Assembly (NCBI GenBank): GCA_020523885.1
Contig: JAJAPY010000002.1
Span: forward strand, 124,001-188,000
Reading direction: 5' to 3'
From: Candidatus Liberimonas magnetica
Lineage (GTDB): Bacteria > Elusimicrobiota > Endomicrobiia > Endomicrobiales > JAFGIL01
Length of the DNA: 64,000 nucleotides
This document shows, piece after piece, positions 22,269-43,299 of this stretch. How positions within the stretch are numbered: position 1 is the stretch's first letter; the number at the start of each line of letters is the position of its first letter. Made by a program: the position numbers and the translations under genes. Under the pieces are notes generated by a model that saw nothing but the letters and a program-made list of their open reading frames with translations, searched no databases and was not told where the DNA came from.

Positions 22269-22276
22269 GAGCTGAA

Positions 22277-23221: not shown

Positions 23222-23242
23222 CCTAAAAACACGGAGAAACTA

Positions 23243-23902: not shown

Positions 23903-23906
23903 TAAC

Positions 23907-24893
23907 ATGAAAGAATTTATATCAAAAAACAAAACAGTTGCTATTGAACTCTTATACAAAATGAAAAATATTCGCCTTGTTGAAGAAACAATAGCCAGGC
24001 GCTATTCTGAATGGAAAATGCGCTGCCCTACACATTTGTGTACCGGACAGGAATCAGTGGCTGTTGCTGTGGGAACGGCATTGAGAAAAGATGACTTTGT
24101 AATCAGTACACACAGGGCTCACGGGCATTACCTTGGAAAAGGCGGGAGTTTGAAGAGGATGATAGCTGAGATATATGGAAAATCTACCGGATGTTCGAAA
24201 GGCAAGGGCGGATCAATGCATCTGATCGATAAAAGTGTGAACTTTATGGGCAGCACCGCTATCGTTGGAGGCACTATCCCTGTCGGTGTCGGGCTCGGCC
24301 TTTCAATAACTCTAAAGAAAACAGACCAAATAAGCTGTGTATTCTTCGGTGATGGTTCGATCGAAGAAGGTGTATTCTATGAATCGGTCAACTTTGCAGT
24401 TCTTAAAAAACTGCCGGTTCTATTCATTTGCGAAAATAATTTTTACTCTGTTTACTCACCTCTTAAAGTACGACAGCCGGAAGGCAGGAAGATATATGAG
24501 ATGGTAGCAGCCATGGGATGCCCCAGCCAGTGCGGTAACGGCAATGATGTGCTTGAAGTCTATCAAAAAGTAAATTCGGTTCTTGAAGGTATAAGGCAAG
24601 GAAATGGGCCCTTTTTCTTTGAGTTTGATACTTACAGGTGGAGAGAACATTGCGGACATAATTTTGACAATGACCTTGGTTACCGTACTCAGGAAGAATA
24701 TCTATCGTGGAAAGAAAAAGACCCTGTATGCGCTTGGGAGACTATTTTGCTGGAAGCAGGTGTTATTTCTACTAAAGACATAGAAGAAATGGAAAATAAA
24801 ATAAATAAAGAAATAGCAAATGCATTTGATTTTGCTGAAAAATCGCCTTTTCCGGATACAAAGGAAGTCTGCACGGAAATCTACTCGGAATAA
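23907..24893 (+). CDS. Thiamine-diphosphate enzyme, E1 alpha-like subunit
   Basis: 328 residues. Matches the alpha subunit of pyruvate/acetoin dehydrogenase E1: HLCTGQESVAVAVG, STHRAHGHYLGKG, GGSMHLID, and the ThDP motif from GDGSIEEG (148-155) to ICENN (ending 178). The partner beta subunit begins 5 bases downstream. No E2 acyltransferase or E3 dihydrolipoyl dehydrogenase is present in the window, so it is unlikely to be a standard 2-oxoacid dehydrogenase. Paired E1-like proteins such as AviB1/AviB2 of avilamycin synthesis are proposed to transfer a two-carbon unit to a keto sugar; a similar role is inferred here. Confidence 0.85.
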   Translation: MKEFISKNKTVAIELLYKMKNIRLVEETIARRYSEWKMRCPTHLCTGQESVAVAVGTALRKDDFVISTHRAHGHYLGKGGSLKRMIAEIYGKSTGCSKGKGGSMHLIDKSVNFMGSTAIVGGTIPVGVGLGLSITLKKTDQISCVFFGDGSIEEGVFYESVNFAVLKKLPVLFICENNFYSVYSPLKVRQPEGRKIYEMVAAMGCPSQCGNGNDVLEVYQKVNSVLEGIRQGNGPFFFEFDTYRWREHCGHNFDNDLGYRTQEEYLSWKEKDPVCAWETILLEAGVISTKDIEEMENKINKEIANAFDFAEKSPFPDTKEVCTEIYSE

Positions 24894-24897
24894 TGAA

Positions 24898-25956
24898 ATG
24901 ACAAGAAAAATAACATACGCACAAGCTATAAATGAAGCAATGGTTCAGGCTATGGAGATGGATAAATCAGTCATCTGTTACGGTCTGGGAGTTGATGACC
25001 CTAAAGGCGTATTCGGTACAACATTGGGTTTAAAAGAGAAATTCGGAAGCGAACGGGTTTTTGACATGCCGACTTCTGAAAATGCCATGACCGGAGTTGC
25101 CATAGGCGCTTCCATGAACGGCATAAGGCCTGTTATGACACATCAGCGCCTTGATTTTTTTCTCTTAGCCATGGACCAACTGGTTAATAATGCTGCCAAG
25201 TGGCATTATATGTTCGGAGGACAAACTTCAGTGCCTATTACTATCAGGCTTTTGCTTGGCAGAGGATGGGGGCAAGGTCCGACACATTCCCAGAACCTTC
25301 AGGCATGGTTCGCTCATATCCCAGGGCTTAAAGTTGTCATGCCTACAACTGCAGCCGATGCAAAAGGGCTTCTATTATCAAGCATATTTGACAATAATCC
25401 GGTTATATTCATTGAACATAGATGGCTTCATAATCTTGAGGGCGAAGTGCCTGAGGGTGATTATAGAGTACCTATAGGCAAAGCTCAAAAACTTCGGACA
25501 GGCGATGATATTACAATTGTATCTCTTTCCTATATGACCATAGAGGCCCTGCATGCCATAGAAATACTTGGTAGAAATGGGATTTCATGCGATTTAATAG
25601 ACCTTCGTTCTGTAAATCCAATCGATTGGGAAATGATATACGGTTCCGTAAGGAAAACAAAAAAGCTTCTGGCTCTTGACACGGCTGCAGAGTCATTCTC
25701 AGTAGCAAGCGAGGTTGTTGCAAGAGTGAGTATGGAGTGTTTTAATGATCTTAAATGTGCTCCTAAACGCATAGCTCTGCCTGATTGCCCGACTCCCACA
25801 AGCCCTGCTTTGACAAAGGTTTTTGATAAGGGTGCCGTAGATATAGTAAATATGGCAGGAAAAATGACAGGAAAAAATATAGATACTGGCGAAATATCCA
25901 AACATAAAACCTATCCTCATGATGTCCCAGGTGACTGGTTTAAAGGTCCGTTTTAG
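24898..25956 (+). CDS. Thiamine-diphosphate enzyme, E1 beta-like (transketolase-like) subunit
   Basis: 352 residues from ATG 24898, where the family alignment begins (RKITYAQAINEAMVQAME); the longer open frame to 24820 overlaps the alpha subunit. Features are the pyrimidine-binding domain (FDMPTSENAMTGVAIGASM, glutamate of TSEN), RPVMTHQRLDFFLLAMDQL and a C-terminal transketolase domain (LIDLRSVNPIDWE). A conspicuous GRGWGQGPTHSQNLQAWF loop contains the conserved histidine. It would form an alpha2beta2 enzyme with the preceding gene. Confidence 0.85.
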   Translation: MTRKITYAQAINEAMVQAMEMDKSVICYGLGVDDPKGVFGTTLGLKEKFGSERVFDMPTSENAMTGVAIGASMNGIRPVMTHQRLDFFLLAMDQLVNNAAKWHYMFGGQTSVPITIRLLLGRGWGQGPTHSQNLQAWFAHIPGLKVVMPTTAADAKGLLLSSIFDNNPVIFIEHRWLHNLEGEVPEGDYRVPIGKAQKLRTGDDITIVSLSYMTIEALHAIEILGRNGISCDLIDLRSVNPIDWEMIYGSVRKTKKLLALDTAAESFSVASEVVARVSMECFNDLKCAPKRIALPDCPTPTSPALTKVFDKGAVDIVNMAGKMTGKNIDTGEISKHKTYPHDVPGDWFKGPF

Positions 25957-26046
25957 ATCAGCTATTTATAGGATTGAGTACAAACATAATAAAAAATCAG
26001 TGTAAATTTATAAATCTAAATTCGATTGTTATCATGGGAGAATAAA

Positions 26047-26955: not shown

Positions 26956-26983
26956 AATAAGAGGCTGGAAAGGAAGATTATAA

Positions 26984-27814
26984 ATGACTAATAAAAAGAC
27001 AATCTTTATATTGTCAATTACAAGCGATATAGGGACAGCCTTGGCAAAAGAATATGTAAAAAATGGTTATACAGTTATCGGAACATATAGGTCGAAAAAT
27101 CAATTAAATGAGCTTGTAAGCATAAAGAATATTCATTTGATATACTGTGATTTAAGTGAGATAAAAAGCATATTGAAAATTGAAAAAGAATGTAAAAGGA
27201 TCGATTTAAAATGGGATATTTTTATAGCTTGCGCTGGCACAGAACAGCCTATAGGGCTGTTTTTTGATTGTGATTTTGATGAGTGGAGTAATTCTATCCA
27301 TGTAAATGCAATTGAACAATTAAGGATTCTGCATTCTTTATTTAAATACAGAAATTCTAAAAAGATTTCTGATATAATATTTTTTGCCGGGGGAGGAGCG
27401 AATAACGCTGTTCCGCTCTATTCGGCATATACGGCATCAAAAATAATGCTCACAAAGATGTGCGAGCTTCTTGATGCTGAAAATAGAGATATAAATATTT
27501 TCATTATCGGGCCAGGATGGGTAAAAACAAAGATCCACAATCAAACTATTATGGCGGGTAAAAAAGCAGGGGATAACTATAAAAAGGCAAAAGCATTTAT
27601 GGAAAAAGAAACAGGAACAAAAATGAATGATATTTTTAATTGTATAGAATGGCTTATAAAACAAGGCAAAGATGTATCCGGAGGCAGAAATGTCTCCGTT
27701 GTCCATGACCACTGGAAAGATATAAATTCTAAAAAATTGGCAAGCGAGCTTCGCAGGGACAAGAATATGTATAAACTAAGAAGATTCAAGAATGGATGGG
27801 ACAAAATATTATGA
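26984..27814 (+). CDS. Short-chain dehydrogenase/reductase
   Basis: 276 residues. The cofactor motif is atypical (ILSITSDIGTALAKEY, first glycine replaced), but CAGTEQP, the FFAGGGANN segment, Tyr-Lys in YSAYTASKIML and IGPGWVKTKIH identify a classical SDR. Its last bases overlap the following thiamine-enzyme gene by ATGA, and SDR plus acetolactate-synthase-like pairs recur in O-antigen loci. It probably reduces or oxidises the product or substrate of that enzyme. A C-terminal basic tail (ELRRDKNMYKLRRFKN) is unusual. Confidence 0.75.
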   Translation: MTNKKTIFILSITSDIGTALAKEYVKNGYTVIGTYRSKNQLNELVSIKNIHLIYCDLSEIKSILKIEKECKRIDLKWDIFIACAGTEQPIGLFFDCDFDEWSNSIHVNAIEQLRILHSLFKYRNSKKISDIIFFAGGGANNAVPLYSAYTASKIMLTKMCELLDAENRDINIFIIGPGWVKTKIHNQTIMAGKKAGDNYKKAKAFMEKETGTKMNDIFNCIEWLIKQGKDVSGGRNVSVVHDHWKDINSKKLASELRRDKNMYKLRRFKNGWDKIL

Positions 27815-29604
27815 AACTATCTGATTATGTAATTGAGTTTTTAACAAAACAAGGCATTAAACATGTTTTTGTCATAACCGGCGGCGCCGCAGCTCACTTG
27901 ATAGATTCAGCGGCAAAAAACCGAAAAATCGATTACATTTGCACTCAACACGAACAGGCTGCAGCAATGGCGGCTGATGCATATTCAAGGGTATCGGGAA
28001 ATCTCGGTGCAGCTATAGCAACGTCAGGACCCGGAGCCACTAACCTTATAACCGGTATTTGCTGTGCGTATTATGATTCTATACCTGTTATGTATATTAC
28101 TGGACAGGTAGCGACATTTAGATTAAAGAAATATCTTAAAGTGAGGCAACTGGGTTTTCAGGAAACAGATGTAGTTGCTATGTGCAAGTCTATAACAAAA
28201 TATGCTGTCTTAGTTGATGACCCTAAAAAAATTCGTTATGAACTGGAAAAAGCGGCTTATTTGGCAAAGTCAGGAAGGCCGGGCCCTGTTTTGATAGATA
28301 TACCCGATAATATCCAAAGGGAAAATATAGAACCTGCACAACTAAAATCATATAGGCCTGATAGAAAAGAAAATAAAGATAAGAATGCTCAATTAACAAA
28401 ACAGGTAGCTATGGTTATGAAACTTATCAGCCAAGCAGAGCGCCCTGTTGTTGTGCTCGGGGCAGGTATTAAATTTGCAGGTGCGCAAAATCTTGCAAAA
28501 GAACTTACCGGCATACTAAAAATCCCGATAGTCTTAACCTGGGCAACTATGGACATGTTTCCGTATGATCAGCCGTTGCTGGTAGGAGGATTTGGGCTCA
28601 ATGGGCCAAGATATGGCAATTTTACTGTGCAAAATTCTGATCTCATTTTATCTATTGGGTCACGATTGGACACTCATGCAACAGGAAGCCCTATTTCAAC
28701 CTTCGCAAGAAAAGCTAAAAAAATTATTGTAGATATAGACCCCGCTGAACTCATAAAATTTTCAAAACATGGAATGAAAGTTGATATTGAAATTAACGCT
28801 GATGCTAAAGACTTTCTGGCGGCTATGCTAAGAAAACAAAAAAGCATTAAAACCAAAGATTTATCCGAGTGGCTGAAGAAGATAAAAGAATGGAGGCATG
28901 CATATAAGGCTTGTCCACCTGATTATTACAAACAAAAAGAAATGGTAAATCCATATGTATTTCTGGATATTCTTTCAAAGGAATCTTCAAACGGCGATAT
29001 AATTATAGCTGACACGGGCAATAACGTTGCTCAGGTGTTTCAAGGGTATAAGGTAAAAAACAATCAGATGATATTCAGTGCTTTTAATAATACTCCGATG
29101 GGCTATTCTTTACCGGCAAGTATAGGGGCTTATTTCGCTAACAAGAAGAAAAATAACATAATTTGTATAACAGGAGACGGCGGGATACAAATGAACATTC
29201 AGGAACTGGCAACTATAGCAAAACATAACATACCTATAAAAATATTCGTATTTAACAATCAGGGATACGGAATGATAAAACAAACACAGCAAGACTGGCT
29301 TGAAGCGCGTTACGAAGCATCATGTGTCACAAAAGGAGTAGCAATCCCTAACTTTATTGATATAGCCAAAGCTTACGGGCTACGGACAGTTTTGATAAAT
29401 AATCACATGCAGATGAGAAAAAAAGTTAAGGAAGCCCTAAATTTTAAAACAGCAGTACTTTGCGACCTAAGGCTTAAACCAGACCAAAAGAATATACCTA
29501 TGCTTAAATTCGGCCGACCTATAGAAGATCAAAGCCCGCTTTTATGTAGGGAGGAATTTATGAAAAATATGATTATTAAACCGTTAGATGCATCTTTGGA
29601 ATGA
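27811..29604 (+). CDS. Acetolactate-synthase-like thiamine-diphosphate enzyme
   Basis: 597 residues from ATG 27811 (ATGA overlap with the SDR; an ATG at 27796 is in frame). Three-domain layout: pyrimidine domain with TQHEQAAAMAADAYSRVSG (Glu48), central domain (PVVVLGAGIKFAG, ATMDMFPYDQPLLVGGFG), and ThDP domain from GDGG (455-458) to FNNQGYG. Resembles acetohydroxyacid synthase large subunit, but no regulatory subunit or branched-chain amino-acid genes are near. In Yersinia the AHAS-like YerE adds a two-carbon unit from pyruvate to CDP-3,6-dideoxy-4-keto-glucose to make yersiniose; a comparable branched-sugar role is inferred. Other deoxy-sugar decarboxylase roles remain possible. Confidence 0.82.
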   Translation: MKLSDYVIEFLTKQGIKHVFVITGGAAAHLIDSAAKNRKIDYICTQHEQAAAMAADAYSRVSGNLGAAIATSGPGATNLITGICCAYYDSIPVMYITGQVATFRLKKYLKVRQLGFQETDVVAMCKSITKYAVLVDDPKKIRYELEKAAYLAKSGRPGPVLIDIPDNIQRENIEPAQLKSYRPDRKENKDKNAQLTKQVAMVMKLISQAERPVVVLGAGIKFAGAQNLAKELTGILKIPIVLTWATMDMFPYDQPLLVGGFGLNGPRYGNFTVQNSDLILSIGSRLDTHATGSPISTFARKAKKIIVDIDPAELIKFSKHGMKVDIEINADAKDFLAAMLRKQKSIKTKDLSEWLKKIKEWRHAYKACPPDYYKQKEMVNPYVFLDILSKESSNGDIIIADTGNNVAQVFQGYKVKNNQMIFSAFNNTPMGYSLPASIGAYFANKKKNNIICITGDGGIQMNIQELATIAKHNIPIKIFVFNNQGYGMIKQTQQDWLEARYEASCVTKGVAIPNFIDIAKAYGLRTVLINNHMQMRKKVKEALNFKTAVLCDLRLKPDQKNIPMLKFGRPIEDQSPLLCREEFMKNMIIKPLDASLE

Positions 29605-29724
29605 TAGGCTGCTGATGTTTTGTAATCATAAAAGGAGATATAAATAATAAGGAATCCATTGTATTTAGTAACCGCGTAAAAAATGAAAACATAGTAATTG
29701 ACAAAATAATATTACGGAGGAATT

Positions 29725-30681: not shown

Positions 30682-30732
30682 AAAGATATTTTTTAAAGGT
30701 AGTTGATTAACTAATACAGGAGTTTCGTTATT

Positions 30733-31776
30733 ATGAAAACGAAAGCTGCAGTATTAAATGAACTAAACAAACCGCTTGTTATTGAAGAACTAATTATACC
30801 TGAACTCAAGGAAGGCCAGGTTTTAGTTAAAATAAAAGCTTCTGGTTTGTGCCATAGCCAATTAAATGAGATAAAAGGCAATAAGGGCCCCGACAAATTC
30901 CTGCCTCACACAATGGGGCATGAAGGCGCCGGTATAGTTGAAGAAATTGGCAGAAATATTAAAAAAGTCAAAAAAGGCGACCATGTAGTACTTACTTGGA
31001 TAAAGGGCTCAGGTTTTGATGTTCCTTCCGCAATATATGTAACAAGTGATGGCATAAAAGTTAACTCAGGCGCCATTTCAACATTTACCGAATACGCAGT
31101 TGTCTCCGAAAACCGTTTAGTTAAAATTCCTGAAGAAGTACCTTTCAAAGATGCATCTCTTCTTGGTTGTGCTATCCCAACGGGTGCGGGAATTATTAAA
31201 AATACTGTTAAATTACAGCCAAATCACTCTCTTGCAGTTTTCGGAGTAGGCGGTATCGGCTCTAGCGCAGTTCTTTATGCTGCAAGTATAGGATGTTCAA
31301 AAATAATTGCAATTGACATTAATGATTCAAAATTGGAGTTTGCAAAAAGGATAGGTGCAAAATATACATTAAATTCAAAAAAAGAAGATGTTATATCAAA
31401 AATAAAAAAATTTAGTGATGGTAAAGGTGTTGATTATTCAGTTGAATGTTCTGGCGTTAAGGAAGTGATGGAAATGGCTTTTAATTCGATAAACAATAAA
31501 GGAACTACGGTCATTGCAGGTAATTTAAAACACGGTGAGAGAATCTCAATAAATCCCTTTGATCTAATTGTAGGAAAAAAAATCATAGGAACCTGGGGCG
31601 GTGAAACATATCCTGATGTAGACATTCCAGTTTACATAGAGTTGTATTTATCGAAAAAACTAAAGCTCAATGAACTTATTACAAATACATATGACCTTCA
31701 GAATATTAATACTGCATTTGCTGATCTGGAGCAAGGGAAAGTACAGCGGGCTGTAATTGTTTTTAATAAGGAATAA
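30733..31776 (+). CDS. Zinc-type alcohol dehydrogenase lacking the structural zinc loop
   Basis: 347 residues, medium-chain dehydrogenase. Catalytic zinc ligands Cys40, Gly-His63-Glu64 (MGHEGAG) and probably Cys146 are present; NAD fold at FGVGGIGSSAV. The four-cysteine structural zinc site expected near residues 90-110 is missing (GSGFDVPSAIYVTSDG instead). Substrate unknown. It sits between the thiamine block and the phosphonate block; it could reduce phosphonoacetaldehyde to 2-hydroxyethylphosphonate, or act on a two-carbon or sugar alcohol. RBS AGGAG. Confidence 0.78.
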   Translation: MKTKAAVLNELNKPLVIEELIIPELKEGQVLVKIKASGLCHSQLNEIKGNKGPDKFLPHTMGHEGAGIVEEIGRNIKKVKKGDHVVLTWIKGSGFDVPSAIYVTSDGIKVNSGAISTFTEYAVVSENRLVKIPEEVPFKDASLLGCAIPTGAGIIKNTVKLQPNHSLAVFGVGGIGSSAVLYAASIGCSKIIAIDINDSKLEFAKRIGAKYTLNSKKEDVISKIKKFSDGKGVDYSVECSGVKEVMEMAFNSINNKGTTVIAGNLKHGERISINPFDLIVGKKIIGTWGGETYPDVDIPVYIELYLSKKLKLNELITNTYDLQNINTAFADLEQGKVQRAVIVFNKE

Positions 31777-31785
31777 TTAACATAA

Positions 31786-33165
31786 ATGGGAATAGCATTA
31801 GCTATCAATAACCAATATTTGGCAATCAAAAACATCATTAAGCCTTTTATGCTAAAGGCACATGTTGATAAGCCTGTTTTTTATGGAATTTTAAGCAAAG
31901 GTTTTAATCTTATGGCGGCCCCTATAACGGCAATTTTAATAGCTACGCATTTTACTGCAAAATTACAGGGATATTACTATACATTTTATAGTATCATAGC
32001 TTTACAATCGTTAGCAGAACTTGGTTTTTGTACTGTAATTGTACAGTTCGCCGCGCATGAATGGTCAAATTTAACTTTGACTGAAGATGGAGCGCTAACC
32101 GGCAAACAGGAATCTCTATCAAGATTAGCAAGCCTGACCAGATTTGTTTTAAAATGGTATGCTGTCATCGCCGTTATAGTCATAATTGGTTTGAGTGTGG
32201 GTGGTTTTATATTTTTTTTAAAGTCGCCTGATCCTTCTATTAATTGGAAAATGCCGTGGTTTTTATTATGTTTTCTTACAGGCATAGTAGTTATGATAAT
32301 GCCAGTAACTTCTATTCTTGAAGGATGCAACCAGGTATCAAACCTTTATTTATATAATTTTTATCAAGCTTTGTTTACGCGTACAGCAATGTGGCTGGCA
32401 ATTATATTTAGCTGTCAACTCTGGGCTATTGTTATTTCAACGCTGGTGAATATAATCGCTATATGTAGTTTTGTGTTCAAGCAGTATAAAACATTTTTTA
32501 AAACCTTAATATTTACTTTTCAGGTAAAGGAGAAGATTCACTGGTTTAAAGATGTGTGGCCAATGCAGTGGAAAATAGGTTTAGGCACTTTGGTAGGTTA
32601 TTTTTGTTTCTATTTTTTTATACCAGTTCTTTTCAAATACCACGGCCCTATAATTGCCGGTCAAATGGGTATGACATGGAGTGCTGTAGCACTAATACCT
32701 TCTATACCCGGCGCTTGGACATCTCCTAAAATTCCACAGCTTGGAATGCTGATTGCCCAGAAAAGATATGTGGAATTAGATAAATTATTTTGGAAGCTTA
32801 TGAAAATAACAATGGTCGTTTCAGGTTCAATAGCAATTGGAGGATGGTCTCTTGTTTGTATTTTAAATATTTTCCATCACCCGTTTGCATTGCGGCTTAT
32901 TAAACCATTTCCGATGGGCCTTTTTATTATAGCACAATTCCTTTTATCTTTTTCTCAACCCATGTCGTCTTATCTTTTTGCTCATAAAAAAAATCCATTG
33001 TTATTTGTATCAATGCTTTCAGGCATATTAGTAGTGGTCAGTAATTTAACTTTGGGAAGGTATTACTCTGTTATGGGAATGGCTGTCGGATACCTCTTGG
33101 TAATGCTATTAGTAGTCCCGATTATTGCTATTATCCTATATCGTTTTAGAATCAAGTGGCATTGA
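31786..33165 (+). CDS. wzx: Wzx-type polysaccharide flippase
   Basis: 459 residues with about 12 predicted membrane helices. Begins with the MATE/PST-type pattern VFYGILSKGFNLMAAPITAILIA; the IIAGQMGMTWSAVALIPSIPGAWTSPKIPQL loop and HHPFALRLIKP are similar to polysaccharide-transport flippases. It would move the completed lipid-linked repeat unit to the periplasmic face. It is the only flippase candidate in the window, consistent with a single Wzx/Wzy pathway. The next gene starts two bases after the stop. Confidence 0.8.
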   Translation: MGIALAINNQYLAIKNIIKPFMLKAHVDKPVFYGILSKGFNLMAAPITAILIATHFTAKLQGYYYTFYSIIALQSLAELGFCTVIVQFAAHEWSNLTLTEDGALTGKQESLSRLASLTRFVLKWYAVIAVIVIIGLSVGGFIFFLKSPDPSINWKMPWFLLCFLTGIVVMIMPVTSILEGCNQVSNLYLYNFYQALFTRTAMWLAIIFSCQLWAIVISTLVNIIAICSFVFKQYKTFFKTLIFTFQVKEKIHWFKDVWPMQWKIGLGTLVGYFCFYFFIPVLFKYHGPIIAGQMGMTWSAVALIPSIPGAWTSPKIPQLGMLIAQKRYVELDKLFWKLMKITMVVSGSIAIGGWSLVCILNIFHHPFALRLIKPFPMGLFIIAQFLLSFSQPMSSYLFAHKKNPLLFVSMLSGILVVVSNLTLGRYYSVMGMAVGYLLVMLLVVPIIAIILYRFRIKWH

Positions 33166-33167
33166 TT

Positions 33168-35120
33168 ATGGAAAAGAAAGGAACACCTATCTTAGCTATT
33201 AATAAAAATATCCTTATTATCTGCAGAGATATCAATGATATGAATTTGCTTAATAGAATAAAAGCAGATCCTGAAATGAATTATATTGTTGCTTCTGACA
33301 ATATTGCAGTTCAAGAAACATGTAAACGATTTTCATGGGTTAATGAAGTTTGCTGGATTGAAGAGATGGAAACCTTGTATTCGGTTTCTGATGATGTCAT
33401 AGCGATTATTAAGGTTATTAACGAATGGTTCAAGGCACTAAGTTACGGTAAAATCGCAAATATTGACGAATTACTTTTCTGGATACAACATGTTGAAGGT
33501 GGTGAGACAACACAGCGTATCCAGGATGTATTGCTTTTAATAAGGTCCTACCTGCATTTATTTGATGTTTACAATATATCGGAAGTTAAAATTATAAGAA
33601 ATCCTGACTCTTTGTGGGAAGATGACGTTTTACTTCTAACTGCTTTAAACAGAGGGATCAGTGTTAATCTTTTAGGAAGCCATAGGGTAAATGTTATAGT
33701 CAGAAAACTAAAATTATTTATCAAAAATGTAATATTAAGAGAACCTTACTATGTATCGAATATTTTGCGCGTAAAATTGATGACAATATTAAAGAAAAAT
33801 AAGGTAAGAAATAATGAAATATTATTCCAGCTTTGCAGTTCATCACCCGGGCATATTGAGAATATTATTCCGATAATGAAAGAAGTAAAAAAGAAAGGAT
33901 ATAATCCTATTGCGTTATGCTGGATGGCTTCGAGTGGTGCAAAAAAAGTAAGAGAAGATGGTATAAGCGCTGAAGAACTGGAAGAATTTGTCCCAAATTC
34001 AAGTTTGTGGCAGAGTGGAATCCATATGATTAGAATTTGGAAGAAAGCAACCAGTATGAAAATATCTTTTATTGAACACCCTTCATTAAACTATAAATCT
34101 GTTCCTTTCGGTAAGCTGCTTTGGCCGTCAATATTCTATTTTATATTTGTTGAATTTCCTCAAAAGTATAGGTTGAATCTTGCATTAAATAAATATTTAT
34201 CAATCCATTCGCCCTTAGCAATCAAATTGTGGGGCGGAGGGACTTTGACGGAAGGTAATTTAGTTTTGAAATATATTTCAAAGAATGTAAAACCAATTTT
34301 AATGTATTGGTTTGATGGAGTTTTTGATTATCCTTATGAATCAAAATTCAAGCATGTTGATTTATTCCTGACTTCTGGTAAATCCCAGGAAAATCATTTG
34401 GAAAAACTGGGTGTAGAAAACAACCGGATGGTTTCAGTAGGATCGAGCAGGTATGATCTTCTCCCTGATTTTATTAAAGAAAACACACAACAATCATCGC
34501 GTTTACGCATGAACGTGCCCTTAACATATAGGATGTATGTTCTTTATACCCCAGCTACTTCTACAAGAGGTTTTACTACGGTTCGCGAACAGGTGCTGCT
34601 CACAGATTTTTTGCTGAAGTTTGCGAATAATTTTCAAAATACAGCTTTGCTTATTAAACCTCACCCTACGTGTAATACTGTAACATTGAACTATGCTATT
34701 AAACGATACTCGCTGCCTAACGTATTTTTAATTGATAAAAACATTAGTCCTTATCATGCCATAAATGCCTGCGATCTGTTAATCTTAAAAATATCAACTG
34801 TTGGTTTAGAAGCAATGCTACTTAATAGGCCAGTGATTTCAGTTATCCTTAATAAAGAGATGCGTTTCAGGATTTATGGTGAAGCCACCGAGAACGTAAC
34901 AAGCATAGAAGAATTAGATGTTTTGCTTAGGAAGTTAGAAAATGAAAAAGATTTTAGATTTATATGGACAAAAAATATGATTATAAAAGGAAATAAGTAT
35001 TGTGAAGAATATATGGGTAAAAGACAAACAAATTCTTCTGCTTTATCAGCAGAAGCTATTGACAGATTTATTACAGAAAGAAGATTAAAATCAGAGGTAT
35101 CTTATGAAAAAATCAACTAA
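33168..35120 (+). CDS. GT-B-fold transferase related to CDP-glycerol/polyol phosphotransferases
   Basis: 650 residues from ATG 33168 (GTG 33156 overlaps the flippase). The N-terminal ~220 residues are unassigned. The C-terminal half is a GT-B pair: [20 protein letters not shown] opens one domain, and [19 protein letters not shown] and [23 protein letters not shown] are the donor-side motifs typical of CDP-glycerol glycerophosphotransferases and polysialyltransferase-like enzymes. It overlaps the PEP mutase-cytidylyltransferase gene by 17 bases. A plausible inference is that it transfers a CMP-activated group to the glycan; a conventional glycosyltransferase is the alternative. Confidence 0.55.
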
Positions 35121-36699
35121 ACTTAAGAACATAGTAAATTCAACACAACTGGAATTTATTATGGAAGCTCATAATGGTTTATCTGCAAGGATAGTAGAAG
35201 AAGCTGGTTTTAAAGGTATTTGGGGAAGCGGGCTTACCATTTCCGCAGCGCTTGGTGTACGTGATAATAATGAAGCTTCATGGACACAGGTTTTGGAAAT
35301 ATTAGAATTTATGAGCGATGCGACAAATATACCTATTTTGCTTGATGGAGACACAGGGTATGGTAATTTTAACAACGTGAGACGGCTGATTAGAAAATTA
35401 GAACAAAGGCAGATAGCCGGAGTTTGTATTGAGGATAAACTATTCCCAAAAACAAATTCTTTTATAAGCGGCGAAACACAGCCACTTGCAGATATAGACG
35501 AATTTTGCGGAAAGATAAAAGCGGCAAAAGATAGCCAAATTGACAGTGACTTTGTAGTTGTAGCAAGGGTTGAGGCATTTATTGCCGGGTGGGGATTAAG
35601 CGAGGCATTACGCAGGGCAGAGGCGTATAGACAAGCAGGTGCGGATGCAGTCCTTATTCATAGTAAAAAATCAAATGCGTCTGATATAGAAGATTTTATG
35701 AAAGAATGGAAGAACAGGCACCCTGTAATTATAGTGCCTACAAAATACTATTCAACGCCTACGGATGAATTCAGGGATTTAGGAATAAGCCTCATTATCT
35801 GGGCAAATCATAACTTGAGAACTTCTATCAGTGCTATGCAGAAATTAACAAAACAGATTCACGATGAAGAAAGCCTTATCAATATAGAAGATAAAATTGT
35901 TTCTGTTGTGGAAGTATTCAGGCTTCAGGGAGCTGATGAACTTAAGGAAGCCGAAAAAAGATATCTGCCGACAGCAGGAAAGCAGGTAAAAGCTGTTATA
36001 TTGGCAGCAGCTCAAGGAGAAGGTTTTGGCGAACTAACGAAAAATATACCTAAGACGCTTCTTAAAATAAACGGAAAGACCATACTTTCAAGCCAGATAG
36101 ATGAATTTAATCAGGTAGGGATAAAGGATATAACTATAGTAAGGGGATTTGGAAAAGAGAAAATTATTGCAAACAATGCAAAATATGTAGATAACGACGA
36201 GTATGCTTCTACAAAAGAATTGTATTCTCTTTATCTGGTAAGAAACGATATTAAAGAAAACGCGGTCATAAGTTTTGGCGATATTATTTTTAAAAGTTAT
36301 ATTCTTAATGACCTGCTTAATGATGATAATGCCATTACTGTGATAGTTGATGCTGATTATCAAACAGACGGAAGTTACCGTGAATATGTTAAGACGGATG
36401 TCCCTTATTCAAGAAAATTGTTTGCACAAACGGTAAAATTAGAAGCAATTTCTGTGTCTATGAAGAAAGACGATATTGCAGGTGAGTTCATAGGGCTGTT
36501 CAAAGTTAATAAGGAAGGCGCTCAGGTTCTAAAAAAAGCGCTGGAAATACTTTATAAAAAGGACAATTTCAAGCAGATGAGAACCTCGGATCTTTTAAGC
36601 GAGATAACGAAGTTACATCCAGTTTCAGTAAAATTCATTAAGGGCTCCTGGCTCGACATTAACAGTATCGTAGACCTGCAAAAAGCCGGTGAATTTTAG
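35104..36699 (+). CDS. pepM: PEP phosphomutase fused to a nucleotidyltransferase (PntC-type)
   Basis: 531 residues, RBS AGAGG. N-terminal PEP mutase domain: [27 protein letters not shown] and the diagnostic [10 protein letters not shown] (110-119), which separates true mutases from isocitrate-lyase relatives. From about residue 296 a nucleotidyltransferase domain begins ([29 protein letters not shown]); its glycine-rich loop lacks the usual arginine. PepM makes phosphonopyruvate, forming the C-P bond; fused PntC-type domains make CMP-2-aminoethylphosphonate in characterised systems. The decarboxylase follows 18 bases later. Confidence 0.9.
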
Positions 36700-36717
36700 A
36701 AGTTAATCAAGGTTATT

Positions 36718-37857
36718 ATGCTAAACACTAAACAATTCGGCGAGCAGTTAAATAATCACGGTTTCAATTTTTATAGCGGAGTGCCGTGTTCTTATTTAAA
36801 AAGTTTAATTAATTATGCCATTAATGAAGGCGATTTTATAATGGCGGCAAATGAAGGCGATGCGGTTGCTATTTGTGCCGGTGCTTTTATCGGAGGCAAG
36901 AAATCCGTATTTTTGTGCCAGAATTCAGGGCTTACAAATGCTGTTTCGCCTCTCACATCGCTTAATTATATTTTTAAAATACCTGTTCTTGGTTTTGTCA
37001 GCTTAAGAGGCGAACCTGGATTAAAAGATGAGCCTCAACATGAACTCACAGGCCAAATAACGGCCTCTCTTCTTGATGTTATGAAGATCAGATGGGAATA
37101 TCTGTCGGCTGACATGAAGTTAGCTGAAGAGCAATTAGAAATTGCTGCTAAGAGCATTGCTGATAATAAATCGTTCTTTTTTGTTGTTAAAAAAGATACT
37201 TTTGAGAATGAACAGCTTTTGGAGCAAAAGACAGTTGTTTCCCAAAATAAAATAAGTATTGAAAAGACAAAAGTTGATACTTGCCCGGCACGTATTGATG
37301 TATTAAAAACAATTGACAGCGTAAAAGACAGTAATACCGTGCTGCTGGCCACTACTGGTTTTACCGGAAGAGAACTATACGAAATTGAAGATGCTGAAAA
37401 CAATTTTTATATGGTAGGCTCAATGGGCTGCATAAGCTCGCTGGCTCTCGGGCTTTCAGTAGCCAGAAAGGATAAGAATATCATAGCAATTGACGGCGAC
37501 GGGTCTCTGCTTATGCGTATGGGTTCGATTGCGACAAGCGGCAGTATAGCGCCTTCGAATATGATGCATATTCTTCTTGATAATAATGCCCACGAATCAA
37601 CCGGAGGGCAAAAGACGGTTTCCCATAGCGTTAATTTTACTACTGTTGCTGCTGCTTGCGGTTACACAAACTCGGTATATGCGCATTCGCTGTCCGAACT
37701 CGAAGAAACCCTGGCAAACTGGAAAAAGAATAAATGTTTGACATTTATTTATATTAAAATTGCTAAAGGGACAAAGGAAAATCTGTCACGCCCGAAAATT
37801 TCACCGAGAGAAGTAAAAGAGCGCTTTATGAAATTCATTGCAAAAGATGTATGTTAG
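36718..37857 (+). CDS. ppd: Phosphonopyruvate decarboxylase
   Basis: 379 residues, thiamine-diphosphate enzyme. N-terminal YSGVPCSYLKSLINYA, then NEGDAVAICAGAFIGGKKSV, LRGEPGLKDEPQHELTG, and the ThDP motif IDGDGSLLMRMGS...LLDNNAHESTGGQ. These are standard Ppd features. It converts phosphonopyruvate to phosphonoacetaldehyde, making the PepM reaction irreversible. The usual next gene, an aminoethylphosphonate transaminase, is not here. Confidence 0.9.
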   Translation: MLNTKQFGEQLNNHGFNFYSGVPCSYLKSLINYAINEGDFIMAANEGDAVAICAGAFIGGKKSVFLCQNSGLTNAVSPLTSLNYIFKIPVLGFVSLRGEPGLKDEPQHELTGQITASLLDVMKIRWEYLSADMKLAEEQLEIAAKSIADNKSFFFVVKKDTFENEQLLEQKTVVSQNKISIEKTKVDTCPARIDVLKTIDSVKDSNTVLLATTGFTGRELYEIEDAENNFYMVGSMGCISSLALGLSVARKDKNIIAIDGDGSLLMRMGSIATSGSIAPSNMMHILLDNNAHESTGGQKTVSHSVNFTTVAAACGYTNSVYAHSLSELEETLANWKKNKCLTFIYIKIAKGTKENLSRPKISPREVKERFMKFIAKDVC

Positions 37858-37889
37858 CGAAAAAATGCAAAGCGGCTTAATAAATCATC

Positions 37890-38579
37890 ATGAAAATCGG
37901 CATTTTATCGGATATCCATTCGAATATCGAAGCTTTAGAATCTGTTTTGAGCGATGCATGTAAAAATGGCGTTAGGAGTTACATCATTCTAGGCGATATT
38001 GTCGGATACGGTGCAAACCCTAATGAAGTAATAAAAGTATTGCGGAATCAAAAGATAATGGGAATGGTTTTGGGTAACCATGATATAGCAATACTAGACA
38101 ATGATATATCAAGGTTTAAAACGGAACATGGCCTCCATTCATTGATGTGGACTAGAAAACAACTGAACAAAAGATCTAGAGAATTTTTAAAAAGCATTGT
38201 TCCGAGGTGCAATTATGCTGAATATGGTTTTAATATATATCATGGTGGCCCAAGCGACATTTATTGGCAGTATGTATTTCCTTCCACTGACAAGGAAATA
38301 TTGAAAGAAGATTTTAAGAATGAAAAAAACAAGCTTGTTTTCGTAGGCCATTCTCACTTGGCGTTCACTTTTGCTTTTAAAAAATTTAGGATTGTAAATC
38401 CCGGAAGTATCGGGCAACCAAGGGATGGCAATCCTGATGCAAGTTATGTTATTTACAACACGAATACAAAAGATACTGAGTTTAGGCGTATTTCTTATGA
38501 TGTAAAAAATGCAGCAATGAAGATAAAAAATGCCGGGTTATACTTATTTCTTGCGCAAAGGTTATTTTTAGGCATTTGA
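37890..38579 (+). CDS. YfcE/MJ0936-type metallophosphoesterase
   Basis: 229 residues. All calcineurin-like motifs are visible: SDIHSN (Asp8, His10), GDIVGYG (Asp36), GNHD (Asn63, His64), the YHGG histidine and GHSHLAF. Such proteins hydrolyse phosphodiesters or phosphomonoesters. It lies between the phosphonate and NTP-transferase genes, so it may act on a sugar phosphate or CMP-linked intermediate; substrate is unassigned. The RBS is weak. Confidence 0.8.
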   Translation: MKIGILSDIHSNIEALESVLSDACKNGVRSYIILGDIVGYGANPNEVIKVLRNQKIMGMVLGNHDIAILDNDISRFKTEHGLHSLMWTRKQLNKRSREFLKSIVPRCNYAEYGFNIYHGGPSDIYWQYVFPSTDKEILKEDFKNEKNKLVFVGHSHLAFTFAFKKFRIVNPGSIGQPRDGNPDASYVIYNTNTKDTEFRRISYDVKNAAMKIKNAGLYLFLAQRLFLGI

Positions 38580-38592
38580 TTTCGGAGGGAAT

Positions 38593-39534
38593 ATGGTTAC
38601 ATTAATTACAGGGGTTGCCGGCCTTACAGGTTCATATCTTGTTGAAAAATGCCTCGAAAATGGCGAAGAAGTTATAGGTATTGACAACTTTTTTAGGGGG
38701 AATATGAATAATCTAAAAAATGTGTCTGATAACAAGAAATTTAGGTTCATAGAAGGGGATATACTGAATATTTATGAGATGGACATGCCGTTTGTAGATA
38801 AGATATATCACCTTGCCGCAATAGTACCTACAAAATACTTTTACGAAGCCCCTGTAGACACCTATATGGTTAATTGCCATGGAACAAAAGTAATGATAGA
38901 TTGGGCAGTTGAACATGGGGTAAAAAAATTCGTAAATGCTTCTAGTTCTGAAATATACGGGCACCCGCAGGAGATACCAACAAAGGAAACTACGCCGTCA
39001 CATTATGATGCTGTAGAAGTAACTACTCGTTGGTCATATGCCGAAGGGAAGATATTAACTGAACATATAGGCAACTATCATAAAGATAAAATAACAATAT
39101 GCCACTTAAGATATGCTAATGTCTACGGCCCCAGGGATATAGATGAGCATCATATAGTACCCTATATTATAAACAAGATATTAAAAAACGAAAAAATAAT
39201 CATAAATAAAAATGCCGATAAAATCAAACGGACTTTCCTGTATATGAGTGATTGTGCTGATGCCACTTATATGGCTATGGAAAGATCACCGAGCGGGGTA
39301 AGCTATAACATTGGATCTGAGGAAGAAGTAACTATTCAAGAACTTCTTGATATGATTATTTCCATATTGGGAATGAAAACCGAAATAGAGTATTCTCTAG
39401 TTAGAAAAGGCGATCCCCAAAGGCGGTTGTTAGATACTTCTAAGGCTAGGAAGATGATAGGATGGTTTCCAAAAGTTTCATTAAAGCAAGGCATAGAAAA
39501 AACTATTGAATGGGTGAGGAAGTATAATCTATGA
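38593..39534 (+). CDS. NAD-dependent sugar epimerase/decarboxylase-like extended SDR
   Basis: 313 residues, RBS GGAGGG. TLITGVAGLTGSYLVEK cofactor motif, IYHLAAIVPTKYF, active-site ASSSEIYGHPQ, Tyr-Lys in SYAEGKILTEH, RYANVYGPRD, and TFLYMSDCADATYMAM. Resembles UXS and UDP-glucose epimerase relatives. Stop and next start overlap as ATGA, tying it to the nucleotidyltransferase. Substrate unknown. Confidence 0.75.
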   Translation: MVTLITGVAGLTGSYLVEKCLENGEEVIGIDNFFRGNMNNLKNVSDNKKFRFIEGDILNIYEMDMPFVDKIYHLAAIVPTKYFYEAPVDTYMVNCHGTKVMIDWAVEHGVKKFVNASSSEIYGHPQEIPTKETTPSHYDAVEVTTRWSYAEGKILTEHIGNYHKDKITICHLRYANVYGPRDIDEHHIVPYIINKILKNEKIIINKNADKIKRTFLYMSDCADATYMAMERSPSGVSYNIGSEEEVTIQELLDMIISILGMKTEIEYSLVRKGDPQRRLLDTSKARKMIGWFPKVSLKQGIEKTIEWVRKYNL

Positions 39535-40295
39535 ACGCCATAATAATGGTCGCAGGTATAGGTTCTCGATTGGGTAAACTGTCAAAGAGAATCCCTAAAT
39601 GCCTCGTTGAGATAAACAAGAATAAAAGAATTATCGACTATTCTATTAGATCTTTGGTATATGCCGGTGCAAAAAATATCATTATAGTGGTAGGACATAA
39701 GTATAAAATGATTAAAACTTATGTGACTAAGAAATATCCCGGCCTTAAAATAAAATTTGTCTATAATAAGTATTACAAATTCCACGGTTCAGGCTACTCT
39801 CTAGCCTTAGGAGCGTTAGAGATAGATTCTCGAATTGTTGTGATTACTGAAGGCGATCTTTTGATACCGAAGGAGTATTATAAAAGAATAGGCGAAGGAA
39901 AGTACAATCAGGTATGTTTAAATAGAAATATTGACCCGTATAGAAGTGTAGTAGCTTTAGGCGGCAAGCGAAACGTCAGGGAATTTATTTATGACCCGAA
40001 ACATGGCAACATCTATGATAGTATAGAAAATAAGGATCAAATAATTGGAGAAAGCGTGCAGTTGTGGTGCTTGAAAGAAGGATCGGTCGGATTAATGAAA
40101 AAAGTAGTAAAAAGCTATCTGAATAGAATCGAAAACTCAAATCCGGACAAAGCAACTAATTTATTCCCAATAAATAAGGTGATAGCTAAGTATCCTATGC
40201 ATTATATATTTGCCAAAAAAAATAAGTGGTTTAACATTAATACATTAGAAGATGTCAAAAAAGCAAGGAGTTCTGAATGGGTAAAAAAATACTAA
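39531..40295 (+). CDS. LicC/PntC-like nucleotidyltransferase
   Basis: 254 residues. NTP-transferase motif AIIMVAGIGSRLGKL followed by RIPKCLVEINKN, then IIVVGHKYKMI, FHGSGYSLALGAL and ITEGDLLIP. The size, the early SRLG-x-PK motif and the EGDLL metal site resemble choline-phosphate or aminoethylphosphonate cytidylyltransferases more than hexose-1-phosphate enzymes. It would activate a small phosphorylated alcohol or phosphonate with CTP. Overlaps the next gene by 19 bases, whose RBS (AAGGAG, 40263-40268) is inside it. Confidence 0.7.
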   Translation: MNAIIMVAGIGSRLGKLSKRIPKCLVEINKNKRIIDYSIRSLVYAGAKNIIIVVGHKYKMIKTYVTKKYPGLKIKFVYNKYYKFHGSGYSLALGALEIDSRIVVITEGDLLIPKEYYKRIGEGKYNQVCLNRNIDPYRSVVALGGKRNVREFIYDPKHGNIYDSIENKDQIIGESVQLWCLKEGSVGLMKKVVKSYLNRIENSNPDKATNLFPINKVIAKYPMHYIFAKKNKWFNINTLEDVKKARSSEWVKKY

Positions 40296-41380
40296 TTGTC
40301 GGCTTTGGAAGTGCGGGTAGCTATGTCCTGGATTTTCTTGCTAGAACCAAGGGCCTTGAAAATGATGAACTTATAATTGGTACTAGGTCAATTGATTCGG
40401 CTATTGCCAGAATTAACATTTGTAGGGTATCTGCCGGTATAATGGGTTTTTACCCTAATATCAAATATAGAAAGCTTGATCTGATGGATACCAGGCATGC
40501 CGTTGATATTTTAAGAGAGATTCAACCGGATATCATAGTTTATACAGGAAGATTTATCAAAGGCATAAAATACGGCGAACTTTCATACCCCAACAACATT
40601 GGCTATGGTGTATGGACTCCTTTAGCTTTGCCGCTTGTATACAGATTGATGAAAGCTGTAAGGGATGCTAAAATAAATACTAAGGTTATTAACTCAAGTT
40701 ACTCAGATGCTGTATGTCCGGCCCTTGCAAGTGTCGGACTTGCTCCCTTTACTGGTGCCGGAAACCTTAATCATTTGATTCCAAGAATTAAGATTGGAAT
40801 AGCTTTGAAAAAAAATGTAAGACCTGATGAAATTGAAGTTATGATGCTGGGGAGCCATTTTCTAAATACATATGTTTCAAAAGAATCTTCTGCAAAGGGT
40901 TCGCCTTATTTTATGGAATGCAAGATAAATGGAAAAAAGATAGATAATCTAACTGATGAAGATATATTTAAATTGGCAAAAATAGCAATACCGGGCGGGC
41001 CGGTAAGAAACCTGATGATAGCTTCAGATATTGTTAAAATTGTACAAAGCATTATTTTTGATGAAGGATTTTATATGCACCTTCCAGGCCCCAATGGATT
41101 GATCGGTGCATATCCTTCAAAAATATATAAAGATAAGATTGAAATATTACTTCCTGAAGGCATGTCTTTAGAAAACGCAATAAAAATAAATGCCGATAGT
41201 TTAAGGTATGATGGTATAGATAGCATTGCAGATGGCAAGATATATTTCACCGATACCTCAATATCTAAAATGAAAGAAGTTTTTGGGTTGACTTATCCTA
41301 AAGTGATCAGTGTCGAAGAATGCGAGCTGTTTGCCGATAAAATTAAGCCGACTCTTGTGAAATATATGGAGAACAAATGA
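40277..41380 (+). CDS. Uncharacterised NAD(P)-binding oxidoreductase (saccharopine-dehydrogenase-like)
   Basis: 367 residues. Rossmann motif KILIVGFGSAGSYVLDFL, a DLMDTRHAVDILREIQPDIIVYTG segment similar to saccharopine-reductase or epimerase relatives, then a distinct C-terminal half with MLGSHFLN, IPGGPVRNLMIASDIVKI and HLPGPNGLIGAYPSK. I do not recognise a characterised family. Between a LicC/PntC-like gene and a sulfatase-family gene, it may act on a small phosphonate or polyol, or on a sugar acid; that is a guess from position. Confidence 0.5.
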   Translation: MGKKILIVGFGSAGSYVLDFLARTKGLENDELIIGTRSIDSAIARINICRVSAGIMGFYPNIKYRKLDLMDTRHAVDILREIQPDIIVYTGRFIKGIKYGELSYPNNIGYGVWTPLALPLVYRLMKAVRDAKINTKVINSSYSDAVCPALASVGLAPFTGAGNLNHLIPRIKIGIALKKNVRPDEIEVMMLGSHFLNTYVSKESSAKGSPYFMECKINGKKIDNLTDEDIFKLAKIAIPGGPVRNLMIASDIVKIVQSIIFDEGFYMHLPGPNGLIGAYPSKIYKDKIEILLPEGMSLENAIKINADSLRYDGIDSIADGKIYFTDTSISKMKEVFGLTYPKVISVEECELFADKIKPTLVKYMENK

Positions 41381-41535
41381 AATACTTTTGCAAAGTTGTA
41401 TACAAAAATAAAATTGAACCCACAATGTATTTCGAGAAAATGAAGAAAAAAGAAATTAAGAAAATAGTTAATGGCTTATTAATAAAACTCGTTTCAGATA
41501 AGAATATCTCAGGAATATTTATTGGAAAGAAATAA
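41377..41535 (+). CDS. Small basic protein, 52 residues, unknown
   Basis: ATG 41377 overlaps the preceding TGA (ATGA), and the frame runs 52 codons to TAA 41533-41535. The product is lysine-rich (KMKKKEIKKIVNGLLIKL) with aromatic residues at the start (MKYFCKVVYKN). It fills most of what would otherwise be a 180-base gap, and translational coupling argues it is real. No membrane segment or known motif. It could be a small partner of the oxidoreductase or of the sulfatase-family protein, or a decayed gene end. Confidence 0.45.
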   Translation: MKYFCKVVYKNKIEPTMYFEKMKKKEIKKIVNGLLIKLVSDKNISGIFIGKK

Positions 41536-41561
41536 GGGTGTAAATTTTAGGTAATTTTATT

Positions 41562-43283
41562 ATGAATATGCAAAATAACACTAAAAAGAATGTAATATTT
41601 ATTATCTTTGATTCACTGCGCTATGACAGGCTTGGTTTTGGAGGGCATAATCCAAGCCCTTCCCCCAATATAGACAAACTATTATCATCAGGATTAACGT
41701 TAACTAATGCTTTTTCTACAGGATGTGCAACGGAGTTTGCTTATCCTACATTAACAACATCAACTATGTCTCTTGATAATGGCGGTTATGCGTGTGGTAT
41801 TAGCGGCAGAGAAATCACCATAGCAGAGGTTTTTAAGAAAGAAGGCTATAGAACCAGTATTTTTTTTGATGATTATTATAGGTCTCCCTCAAAATACAGC
41901 CGGGGTTATGATGATGTGTTTTTATTGTTTGACTTAATACGTTTCCTTGCGGATGTTGGAGACACCATTCCATATTTTTCAAATATGTTGAAAAACGGGA
42001 AAAAATCTACAGAAGAATGTATAGAGGCTCTTGAAGAATATTTAAGTGTGTTATTCCCGGATATGATAATGTATTGTAAATTTATGAAGGAAAGTGTTGA
42101 AAAAGATAATTTATTGCCATCTTTATTATTGCATAACTATGACCATGCTGGTATTATAGATATTTTAACAAGCGCTAAAATAAAATACGATGCTGGCCAC
42201 AAAAAATATATCTTGGACCTATTAAATAACAAAGAAAATATATTTGACAAGATCCTTGAGATAGTTAAAGTTCGGAAGGCCCATCCTCAGACTGTTAATG
42301 TAGATAAATATCTAAGAATACTGCTTATTAAATGTTTAATTTATAACGTGGTTTCGTTCATTAAAGGAAGAGCGTCTAAAAAAGCAGTTGGAAACGCCTT
42401 ACGAAGGGTGGTCTTTAAGCAGAATAGATATGTTCAGTTCCAGACTGCAGCATATATTTTCAATAATTTTATACATTGGATAGATAAGATGCCCAAAGAT
42501 AAGCCATTCTTTGCATGGATGCATACTGCAGATATCCATGAGTTAAATTTTGCGTCGTATGATATTCCGAATGGTGAGGAGATGGTGAAAAAAGAAGTTG
42601 TGTGTATGAGTGAATTATACTCAGAGATCGCTTCACAAAAAAATAATTACTACGGTAATCCTTTATATGATTTTTCAGTTAAATATACAGATATTCAGGT
42701 CGGGCGGCTAATAAATATGCTTAAAGATAGGGATCTCCTGGATAATACTCTAATAGTATTAACGGCTGATCATGGCCATACTTCAACCGAATGGCCTATC
42801 AGAAAAAACGTTCATATCTCAAGAGACTTTTATGATGAGCTCTATCATGTCCCGGTAGCTTTTGTCAACAAAGACATTAAGGCAAACAAAATGGAAGGTA
42901 TGTACTCTTCGTTGGATATTTTGCCTACTTTATTAAACCTTTTAAATGTTCAAATTCCAAACGCATTTCGTGGAGAACCTGTAGATCCTAAAGTAGATAC
43001 CGGTAGGAAATATGTAATAATGGAGCACTTAGGCCCTGGCCCTTGTGATTTTAAATCAAAACCCATAAAGATTTGTGTCAGAAACAGTACCCATAAATTA
43101 CTTTATGAAATATTGCTGCCTGTAGAAGATCATGAAGGACGGATTAGTGAAATATATGATCTCTTAAAAGACTCGTTAGAGCAAAATAATTTAGCTGAAA
43201 ATAAAAATATTATTAACGAAATACAAGAATTATTAACAATTGCAAAAGAAAGGGCTGTTGAAATTCAAAGGCAATTAAAATAG
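41562..43283 (+). CDS. Sulfatase/alkaline-phosphatase superfamily protein without export signal
   Basis: 573 residues. Metal-binding start VIFIIFDSLRYDRLG (Asp17), nucleophile region STGCATEFAYPTLTTST (Cys55 or Thr57 candidates; the sulfatase C/S-x-P-x-R motif is not kept), an inserted helical region (about 130-300), MHTADIHELNF and LTADHGHTSTEWP (Asp-His pair). No signal peptide or membrane segment, so it appears cytosolic, unlike most sulfatases or EptA/LtaS transferases. Family members hydrolyse or transfer sulfate, phosphate or phosphonate groups. Its place in the phosphonate block suggests phosphonate-ester chemistry, unproved. Confidence 0.72.
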   Translation: MNMQNNTKKNVIFIIFDSLRYDRLGFGGHNPSPSPNIDKLLSSGLTLTNAFSTGCATEFAYPTLTTSTMSLDNGGYACGISGREITIAEVFKKEGYRTSIFFDDYYRSPSKYSRGYDDVFLLFDLIRFLADVGDTIPYFSNMLKNGKKSTEECIEALEEYLSVLFPDMIMYCKFMKESVEKDNLLPSLLLHNYDHAGIIDILTSAKIKYDAGHKKYILDLLNNKENIFDKILEIVKVRKAHPQTVNVDKYLRILLIKCLIYNVVSFIKGRASKKAVGNALRRVVFKQNRYVQFQTAAYIFNNFIHWIDKMPKDKPFFAWMHTADIHELNFASYDIPNGEEMVKKEVVCMSELYSEIASQKNNYYGNPLYDFSVKYTDIQVGRLINMLKDRDLLDNTLIVLTADHGHTSTEWPIRKNVHISRDFYDELYHVPVAFVNKDIKANKMEGMYSSLDILPTLLNLLNVQIPNAFRGEPVDPKVDTGRKYVIMEHLGPGPCDFKSKPIKICVRNSTHKLLYEILLPVEDHEGRISEIYDLLKDSLEQNNLAENKNIINEIQELLTIAKERAVEIQRQLK

Positions 43284-43299
43284 CAATTAGGAGATAAAA

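Follow-up and report, generated by a model that had tools for sequence, protein, structure and literature searches.

A 64,000-nucleotide stretch of the genome of Candidatus Liberimonas magnetica (Elusimicrobiota; contig JAJAPY010000002.1, positions 124,001 to 188,000), hereafter the window, holds phosphonate biosynthesis genes within a surface-polysaccharide locus. They encode a phosphoenolpyruvate mutase fused to a nucleotidyltransferase domain of the PntC type (PepM-NTP) and a phosphonopyruvate decarboxylase (Ppd), and lie downstream of a gene for a zinc alcohol dehydrogenase (ADH) of the MDR family. The locus is most likely a cassette of the phosphonoglycan type, whose tailoring step is unassigned. 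With moderate confidence, we consider that this cassette (33156-37857, perhaps to 41380) has been joined into a surface-polysaccharide operon, and that the ADH belongs to an upstream module of thiamine-diphosphate (TPP) enzymes of the E1 and IlvB types. The end product is probably not aminoethylphosphonate (AEP); hydroxyethylphosphonate (HEP) is our leading guess, a tentative one, and its reductase is unassigned.

Both core enzymes score above curated cut-offs: PepM, encoded by a single-copy gene, has 398 bits to TIGR02320 (cut-off 320) and carries the EDKxxxxxNS motif, and Ppd has 419 bits to TIGR03297 (cut-off 312). The fusion and the Ppd named in an earlier annotation made from the letters alone (the sequence-only reading) are thus upheld, and phosphonoacetaldehyde should be produced: PepM would convert phosphoenolpyruvate to phosphonopyruvate, which Ppd would decarboxylate. 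All the genes listed by that reading from the ADH to an oxidoreductase of no assigned function (30733-41380) were found at the same coordinates, on the plus strand only. They are spaced by -19 to +32 nucleotides, so that a single transcript is likely.

No AEP transaminase (AEPT) follows Ppd, as had been noted, and the absence extends to the whole assembly (G000 in our labelling; 3.39 Mb, 97.8% complete, with the window on contig C2): a genome-wide search with TIGR03301 returned nothing above the cut-off, near the cassette or elsewhere, the best match reaching 178 of 361 bits. An AEPT in the vicinity, which the sequence-only reading had named as grounds for giving it up, was looked for and not found. 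This match, a class V aminotransferase on contig C15, was ruled out as an AEPT. It has 321 bits to the model of BhcA (L-aspartate-glyoxylate aminotransferase), itself below the cut-off, its gene adjoins serA (phosphoglycerate dehydrogenase), and most other genomes searched, AEPT-bearing or not, have a counterpart with a similar score.

What accompanies Ppd elsewhere? We read 25 other Ppd loci, 14 in the phylum and 11 on plasmids. In the phylum, an AEPT lies beside PepM/Ppd in six loci (L044, L046, L049, L051, L053 and L119), an iron alcohol dehydrogenase (Fe-ADH) is found in six (L047, L048, L050, L052, L120 and L121), and the remaining two (L045 and L054) are cut or degenerate. All six intact AEPT-less loci have a reductase, and for this reason HEP is still a reasonable guess for the window. 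In the literature, PhpC, the known reductase of phosphonoacetaldehyde, is assigned to class IV of the Fe-ADHs (PMC9381506). There is no Fe-ADH beside PepM and Ppd in the window, the PF00465 matches of the genome lying only on contigs C1 and C7, and an ADH of the window type was seen in none of the 14 phylum loci and none of the 11 plasmid loci. Since the window has neither AEPT nor Fe-ADH, the two partners of Ppd in intact loci of the phylum, the fate of phosphonoacetaldehyde becomes a direct question.

Of the full-length relatives for which a product can be read, the closest lies in an Fe-ADH locus, L121 (G299:C1:364700-384600, cluster at 6248-12149). This locus encodes a PepM-NTP (54% identity), Ppd, a LicC-like nucleotidyltransferase, an Fe-ADH and a protein with matches both to methylphosphonate synthase (E = 3e-97) and to HEP dioxygenase (E = 8e-71). 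By its gene content this cluster is of the HEP/methylphosphonate type and should pass through HEP; the synthase/dioxygenase-like gene is possibly frameshifted near its end. The PepM-NTP architecture does not decide the product, because it is found in this cluster and equally in AEPT clusters. Locus L054 (G018:C5:35000-54900) has a truncated Ppd with an in-frame stop at 9334-10146 and no PepM or AEPT nearby, and is probably a decaying phosphonate cluster. On a Streptomyces aurantiacus plasmid (NZ_CP114282.1; L139, 5358-9143), the genes for the N and C halves of a transketolase immediately adjoin those for PepM and Ppd, and an NRPS/PKS gene lies in the vicinity.

Zinc alcohol dehydrogenase and the upstream sugar module

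The ADH matches both the ADH_N and ADH_zinc_N families and keeps the catalytic-zinc ligands C40, H63 and C146. With no cysteine between residues 41 and 145, it is indeed a zinc ADH devoid of the structural zinc loop, as first described. We rejected this missing loop as a clue to the substrate: none of eight aligned relatives, including some encoded beside transketolase halves, shows the loop.

Relatives of the ADH came from a scan of genome contigs and from searching the phylum (341 genomes), and 22 loci were read for context. TPP enzymes (transketolase N/C halves, E1-alpha/beta or IlvB-like) occur in 18 of these loci, with a gap of 7-53 bp to the ADH gene in nine, and PepM, Ppd or AEPT in none of the 22. 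Weak PepM2 matches in five loci (at most 49 bits) were not counted as PepM, since they align to the cytidylyltransferase half of the query and lie within the HldE gene. HldE, GmhA, an epimerase, a methyltransferase and a dTDP-glucose-4,6-dehydratase-like protein also turn up repeatedly around the ADH, and for each of them the window has a counterpart at 19163-23902. The contrast between 18/22 ADH loci and 0/14 Ppd loci with TPP enzymes has a Fisher p of 1.6e-6, a description rather than a strict test because the loci are related and the window, which has both, is left out.

Among relatives whose locus is long enough to compare, the two nearest, L077 (ADH 69% identical) and L078 (62%), also resemble the window in E1 (64-68%), IlvB (55%) and the methyltransferase MT_23243 (53-74%). 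In L077 the ADH gene stands directly before that of a Wzx-like flippase (51%), and the 20 kb read contain no phosphonate gene. In the window, the TPP module upstream of the ADH comprises an E1 pair (23907-25956) and a YerE/IlvB-type enzyme (27796-29604), with a sugar-nucleotide dehydratase (21276-22268), all under the equivalog cut-offs of the named models. HldE- and GmhA-like proteins, a dehydratase, an epimerase, a methyltransferase, a two-subunit TPP enzyme (transketolase halves or E1) and an MDR ADH form a recurrent surface-sugar module (window 19163-31776; L040 and L077-L093), the product of which is perhaps a two-carbon-branched sugar.

Two-carbon sugar branches are installed, as proposed or shown, by E1-like pairs (AviB1/AviB2, Pau11/Pau12) or by the single-chain YerE, and keto reduction comes next (PMC4425429, PMC4753412). 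Judging by synteny, the window ADH would reduce the keto intermediate of a two-carbon-branched sugar supplied by the E1/IlvB module. The simplest reading of the gene order is that the phosphonate cassette begins after the flippase, the ADH being part of the upstream module, and service in this branched-sugar pathway is the more likely function of the enzyme.

Activation and transfer of the phosphonate

Activation of the derived phosphonate as a CMP conjugate would fall to a nucleotidyltransferase, and the stand-alone 39531 enzyme is a likelier choice than the PepM-fused domain (35968-36699). The latter departs from the motif GxG(T/S)Rx4-8PK: a glycine replaces the arginine (Arg15 of Tde-PntC), and the lysine (Lys25) is kept. 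Changing the motif arginine of Tde-PntC to alanine leaves under 10% of activity (PMC6697681). The arginine is missing from the fused domain in all five sequences read (L121, L124, L125, L126 and the window). Since it is gone both in G299, of the Fe-ADH type, and in Mycetohabitans, of the AEPT type, this loss does not separate products; the fused domain may have another role.

The stand-alone enzyme, the second LicC/PntC-like nucleotidyltransferase near PepM and Ppd, retains the complete GxG(T/S)R...PK motif (GIGSRLGKLSKRIPK). At the AEP-specificity positions of Tde-PntC, which are acidic at 104 and 196 and basic at 153, it has a glutamate at 104, and positions 196 and 153 are not clearly kept, in a comparison where the C-terminal half aligns poorly and only two comparators are Fe-ADH-linked. 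This second enzyme had been taken as a pointer to HEP, a use that we do not retain: some clusters hold a fused and a nearby nucleotidyltransferase together according to Rice et al. (PMC6697681), and clusters with an AEPT in Mycetohabitans, Cupriavidus and Roseomonas show the same pairing.

From its CMP conjugate, the phosphonate moiety would pass to the glycan, plausibly through the PF04464-like 33156 protein, which is our best candidate for a phosphonyl transferase and should be taken as a lead. Its gene overlaps pepM, and the protein has a partial PF04464 domain at 401-563 (29.2 bits, for a gathering score of 22.1). Against a profile that combines five PF04464 proteins encoded in other Ppd clusters, it gave a pairwise E-value of 2.9e-5 and a probability of 74%; a PDB match was looked for and none was found. 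Among genomes of the phylum, PF04464 is present in 9 of the 15 with Ppd versus 17 of the 326 without it (Fisher p 7.6e-8, uncorrected for kinship), and its gene lies near Ppd, PepM or AEPT in seven of the nine genomes having both. Besides the window protein (33156-35120), such linked PF04464-type proteins were observed in G005, G013, G049, G050, G082 and G111. LicD was found in none of 14 genomes tested, and a PF04464-type protein is a candidate to transfer the phosphonyl group in its place. Our literature search found no paper joining glycerophosphotransferase, phosphonate and phosphoenolpyruvate mutase.

Fate of phosphonoacetaldehyde

Surface decoration by phosphonates is common by gene content, and the steps past phosphonoacetaldehyde are mostly unassigned. 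Does the window proceed to HEP and then to CMP activation, as the sequence-only reading proposed? HEP itself is plausible, given the lack of AEPT and the reductases of the six AEPT-less loci, but two of the ideas behind the proposal, the zinc ADH as the reductase and the second nucleotidyltransferase as a pointer to HEP, are not supported.

The reductase might be another enzyme, either the Fe-ADH encoded on contig C1 (286640) or the protein at 40277-41380, although we consider this unlikely. The C1 Fe-ADH passes the Pfam cut-off and shares 30% identity with the Fe-ADH linked to Ppd in G005, but its gene sits among apparent cobalamin genes and its top score, to lactaldehyde reductase, is below the cut-off. 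The gene at 40277 overlaps that of the LicC-like nucleotidyltransferase and encodes the oxidoreductase previously listed without a family. We found no Pfam, NCBIfam or direct PDB match for this protein and no other match in the 341 genomes; a profile built with its plasmid relatives weakly resembles lactate and malate dehydrogenases (LDH/MDH; best E = 3.7e-4), which tentatively narrows it down to that superfamily. These plasmid relatives, however, have no phosphonate context. Its single-sequence AlphaFold model (mean pLDDT 34) was unusable.

Reduction of phosphonoacetaldehyde to HEP by the zinc ADH itself, followed by formation of CMP-HEP by a nucleotidyltransferase and decoration of the glycan by a transferase, is unlikely. 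This route agrees with the place of the ADH in an operon-like run with gaps of -19 to +32 nucleotides, with a genome lacking an AEPT above the cut-off and a window lacking a nearby Fe-ADH, and with the presence of a reductase in every intact AEPT-less Ppd locus of the phylum. However, none of the 22 ADH relatives is tied to PepM/Ppd and none of the 25 Ppd loci has an ADH of this type; the relatives keep company with TPP sugar enzymes, and the reductases adjacent to Ppd in the phylum are Fe-ADHs, as is PhpC (PMC9381506). Operon proximity alone would probably pick the wrong reductase here.

We doubt that the product is AEP, formed by a transaminase that escaped recognition or lies outside the assembly: no PhnW-type match exceeds the cut-off in a genome that is 97.8% complete, and the strongest class V candidate resembles BhcA and adjoins serA. 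Such a product would nevertheless fit the plasmids of Burkholderiaceae and Roseomonas, where close PepM-NTP relatives of full length adjoin AEPT, and the acidic residue kept by the 39531 protein at the Glu104 position of Tde-PntC.

It is very improbable that the TPP enzymes and the ADH act on phosphonoacetaldehyde to give a C-branched or chain-extended phosphonate: they do share a single gene cluster with PepM-Ppd, and the Streptomyces plasmid has transketolase halves directly beside these genes, but TPP enzymes and ADH are paired in 18 loci without PepM or Ppd. The complete scheme, in which E1/IlvB would extend phosphonoacetaldehyde and the extended compound would be reduced by the MDR ADH, then CMP-activated and placed on the polysaccharide, has slighter chances still, and we know of no description of a C-branched or chain-extended surface phosphonate.

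Several points weigh against our preferred view of a cassette whose product is not AEP and an ADH that belongs to the upstream E1/IlvB module. About 2% of the genome is missing, and our searches would not recognise phosphonoacetaldehyde transamination by an enzyme of a different class. The ADH shares a tightly spaced gene run with PepM-Ppd, and may for this reason have been recruited to the phosphonate pathway. Its context consists of sequence neighbourhoods, mostly from one phylum, and its branched-sugar role is putative. Finally, the candidate transferase matches PF04464 weakly (29 bits, cut-off 22), and the statistics linking this family to Ppd are uncorrected for relatedness.

Surrounding genes and known systems

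Features of the cassette and of the upstream module, in window coordinates
Feature	Coordinates	Strand	Basis or remark
E1-alpha-like TPP subunit, module tied to ADH	23907..24893	+	
E1-beta-like TPP subunit	24820..25956	+	
SDR oxidoreductase of E1/IlvB module	26984..27814	+	44-45% in L078
IlvB/acetolactate-synthase-like TPP enzyme	27796..29604	+	55% in L077 and L078
MDR-family zinc ADH without structural zinc loop	30733..31776	+	PF00107/PF08240; context of relatives; zinc ligands; more probably reductase of upstream TPP sugar module
Polysaccharide flippase-like (Wzx-like)	31786..33165	+	Score under curated cut-off; ADH-Wzx adjacency kept in L077
654-aa protein, weak CDP-glycerol glycerophosphotransferase (PF04464) domain, candidate phosphonyl transferase	33156..35120	+	
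PepM, C-terminal fusion to LicC/PntC-like nucleotidyltransferase domain without motif Arg	35104..36699	+	TIGR02320
Ppd/AepY	36718..37857	+	TIGR03297
YfcE-like metallophosphoesterase	37890..38579	+	Profile matches
NAD-dependent sugar-nucleotide epimerase/dehydratase (SDR)	38593..39534	+	Profile matches
Stand-alone LicC-like nucleotidyltransferase (DUF6564), canonical GxGSR...PK motif	39531..40295	+	
Rossmann oxidoreductase, weak LDH/MDH-superfamily profile match	40277..41380	+	
Sulfatase/alkaline-phosphatase superfamily enzyme	41562..43283	+	PF00884

Directly downstream of these features, the window encodes CDP-sugar type proteins (RfbF/RfbG-like and RfbC-like, judged by eye) and a C-methyltransferase-like protein (43300-46943); a NeuB/PseI-like synthase and a PseF-like cytidylyltransferase, both under curated cut-offs, are found at 12127-13735. 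A search of 28000-44000 against Rfam gave no match, and promoter- and terminator-like sites were near shuffle levels.

Among described systems, the phosphonyl-tailoring (Pnt) clusters (Rice et al. 2019, PMC6697681) resemble the window in having PepM fused to a PF12804 domain, Ppd, a further LicC-like nucleotidyltransferase close by and a surface-glycan context. Unlike them, the window has no AEPT, its fused domain lacks the motif arginine, and its transferase candidate is PF04464-like instead of LicD. The capsule-like cluster of Segatella copri (NZ_CP085933.1) also combines PepM, Ppd, a PF04464 transferase and a flippase, together with glycosyltransferases. Its PepM, however, is a triple NTP-CyTase-PepM fusion, and its gene order is PepM, Ppd, an Fe-ADH phosphonoacetaldehyde reductase directly after Ppd, then the PF04464 protein; that Fe-ADH is absent from the window. 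The G299 cluster has in common with the window a full-length PepM-NTP fusion, Ppd and a second LicC-like nucleotidyltransferase, and differs by its own Fe-ADH and its methylphosphonate synthase/HEP dioxygenase-like gene.

Glycomyces and Stackebrandtia have HEP phosphonoglycans (Yu et al. 2014, as cited in PMC8931226), and the comparison with them concerns the outcome: a phosphonate on a polysaccharide, as is also proposed here. As for the upstream module, AviB1/AviB2- and YerE-type sugar branching (PMC4425429, PMC4753412) likewise involves an E1-alpha/beta-like pair and a single-chain TPP enzyme in a sugar cluster, and needs a keto reductase. The keto reductase reported there, Pau7, is an aldo-keto reductase, whereas in the window this role would fall to the MDR ADH.

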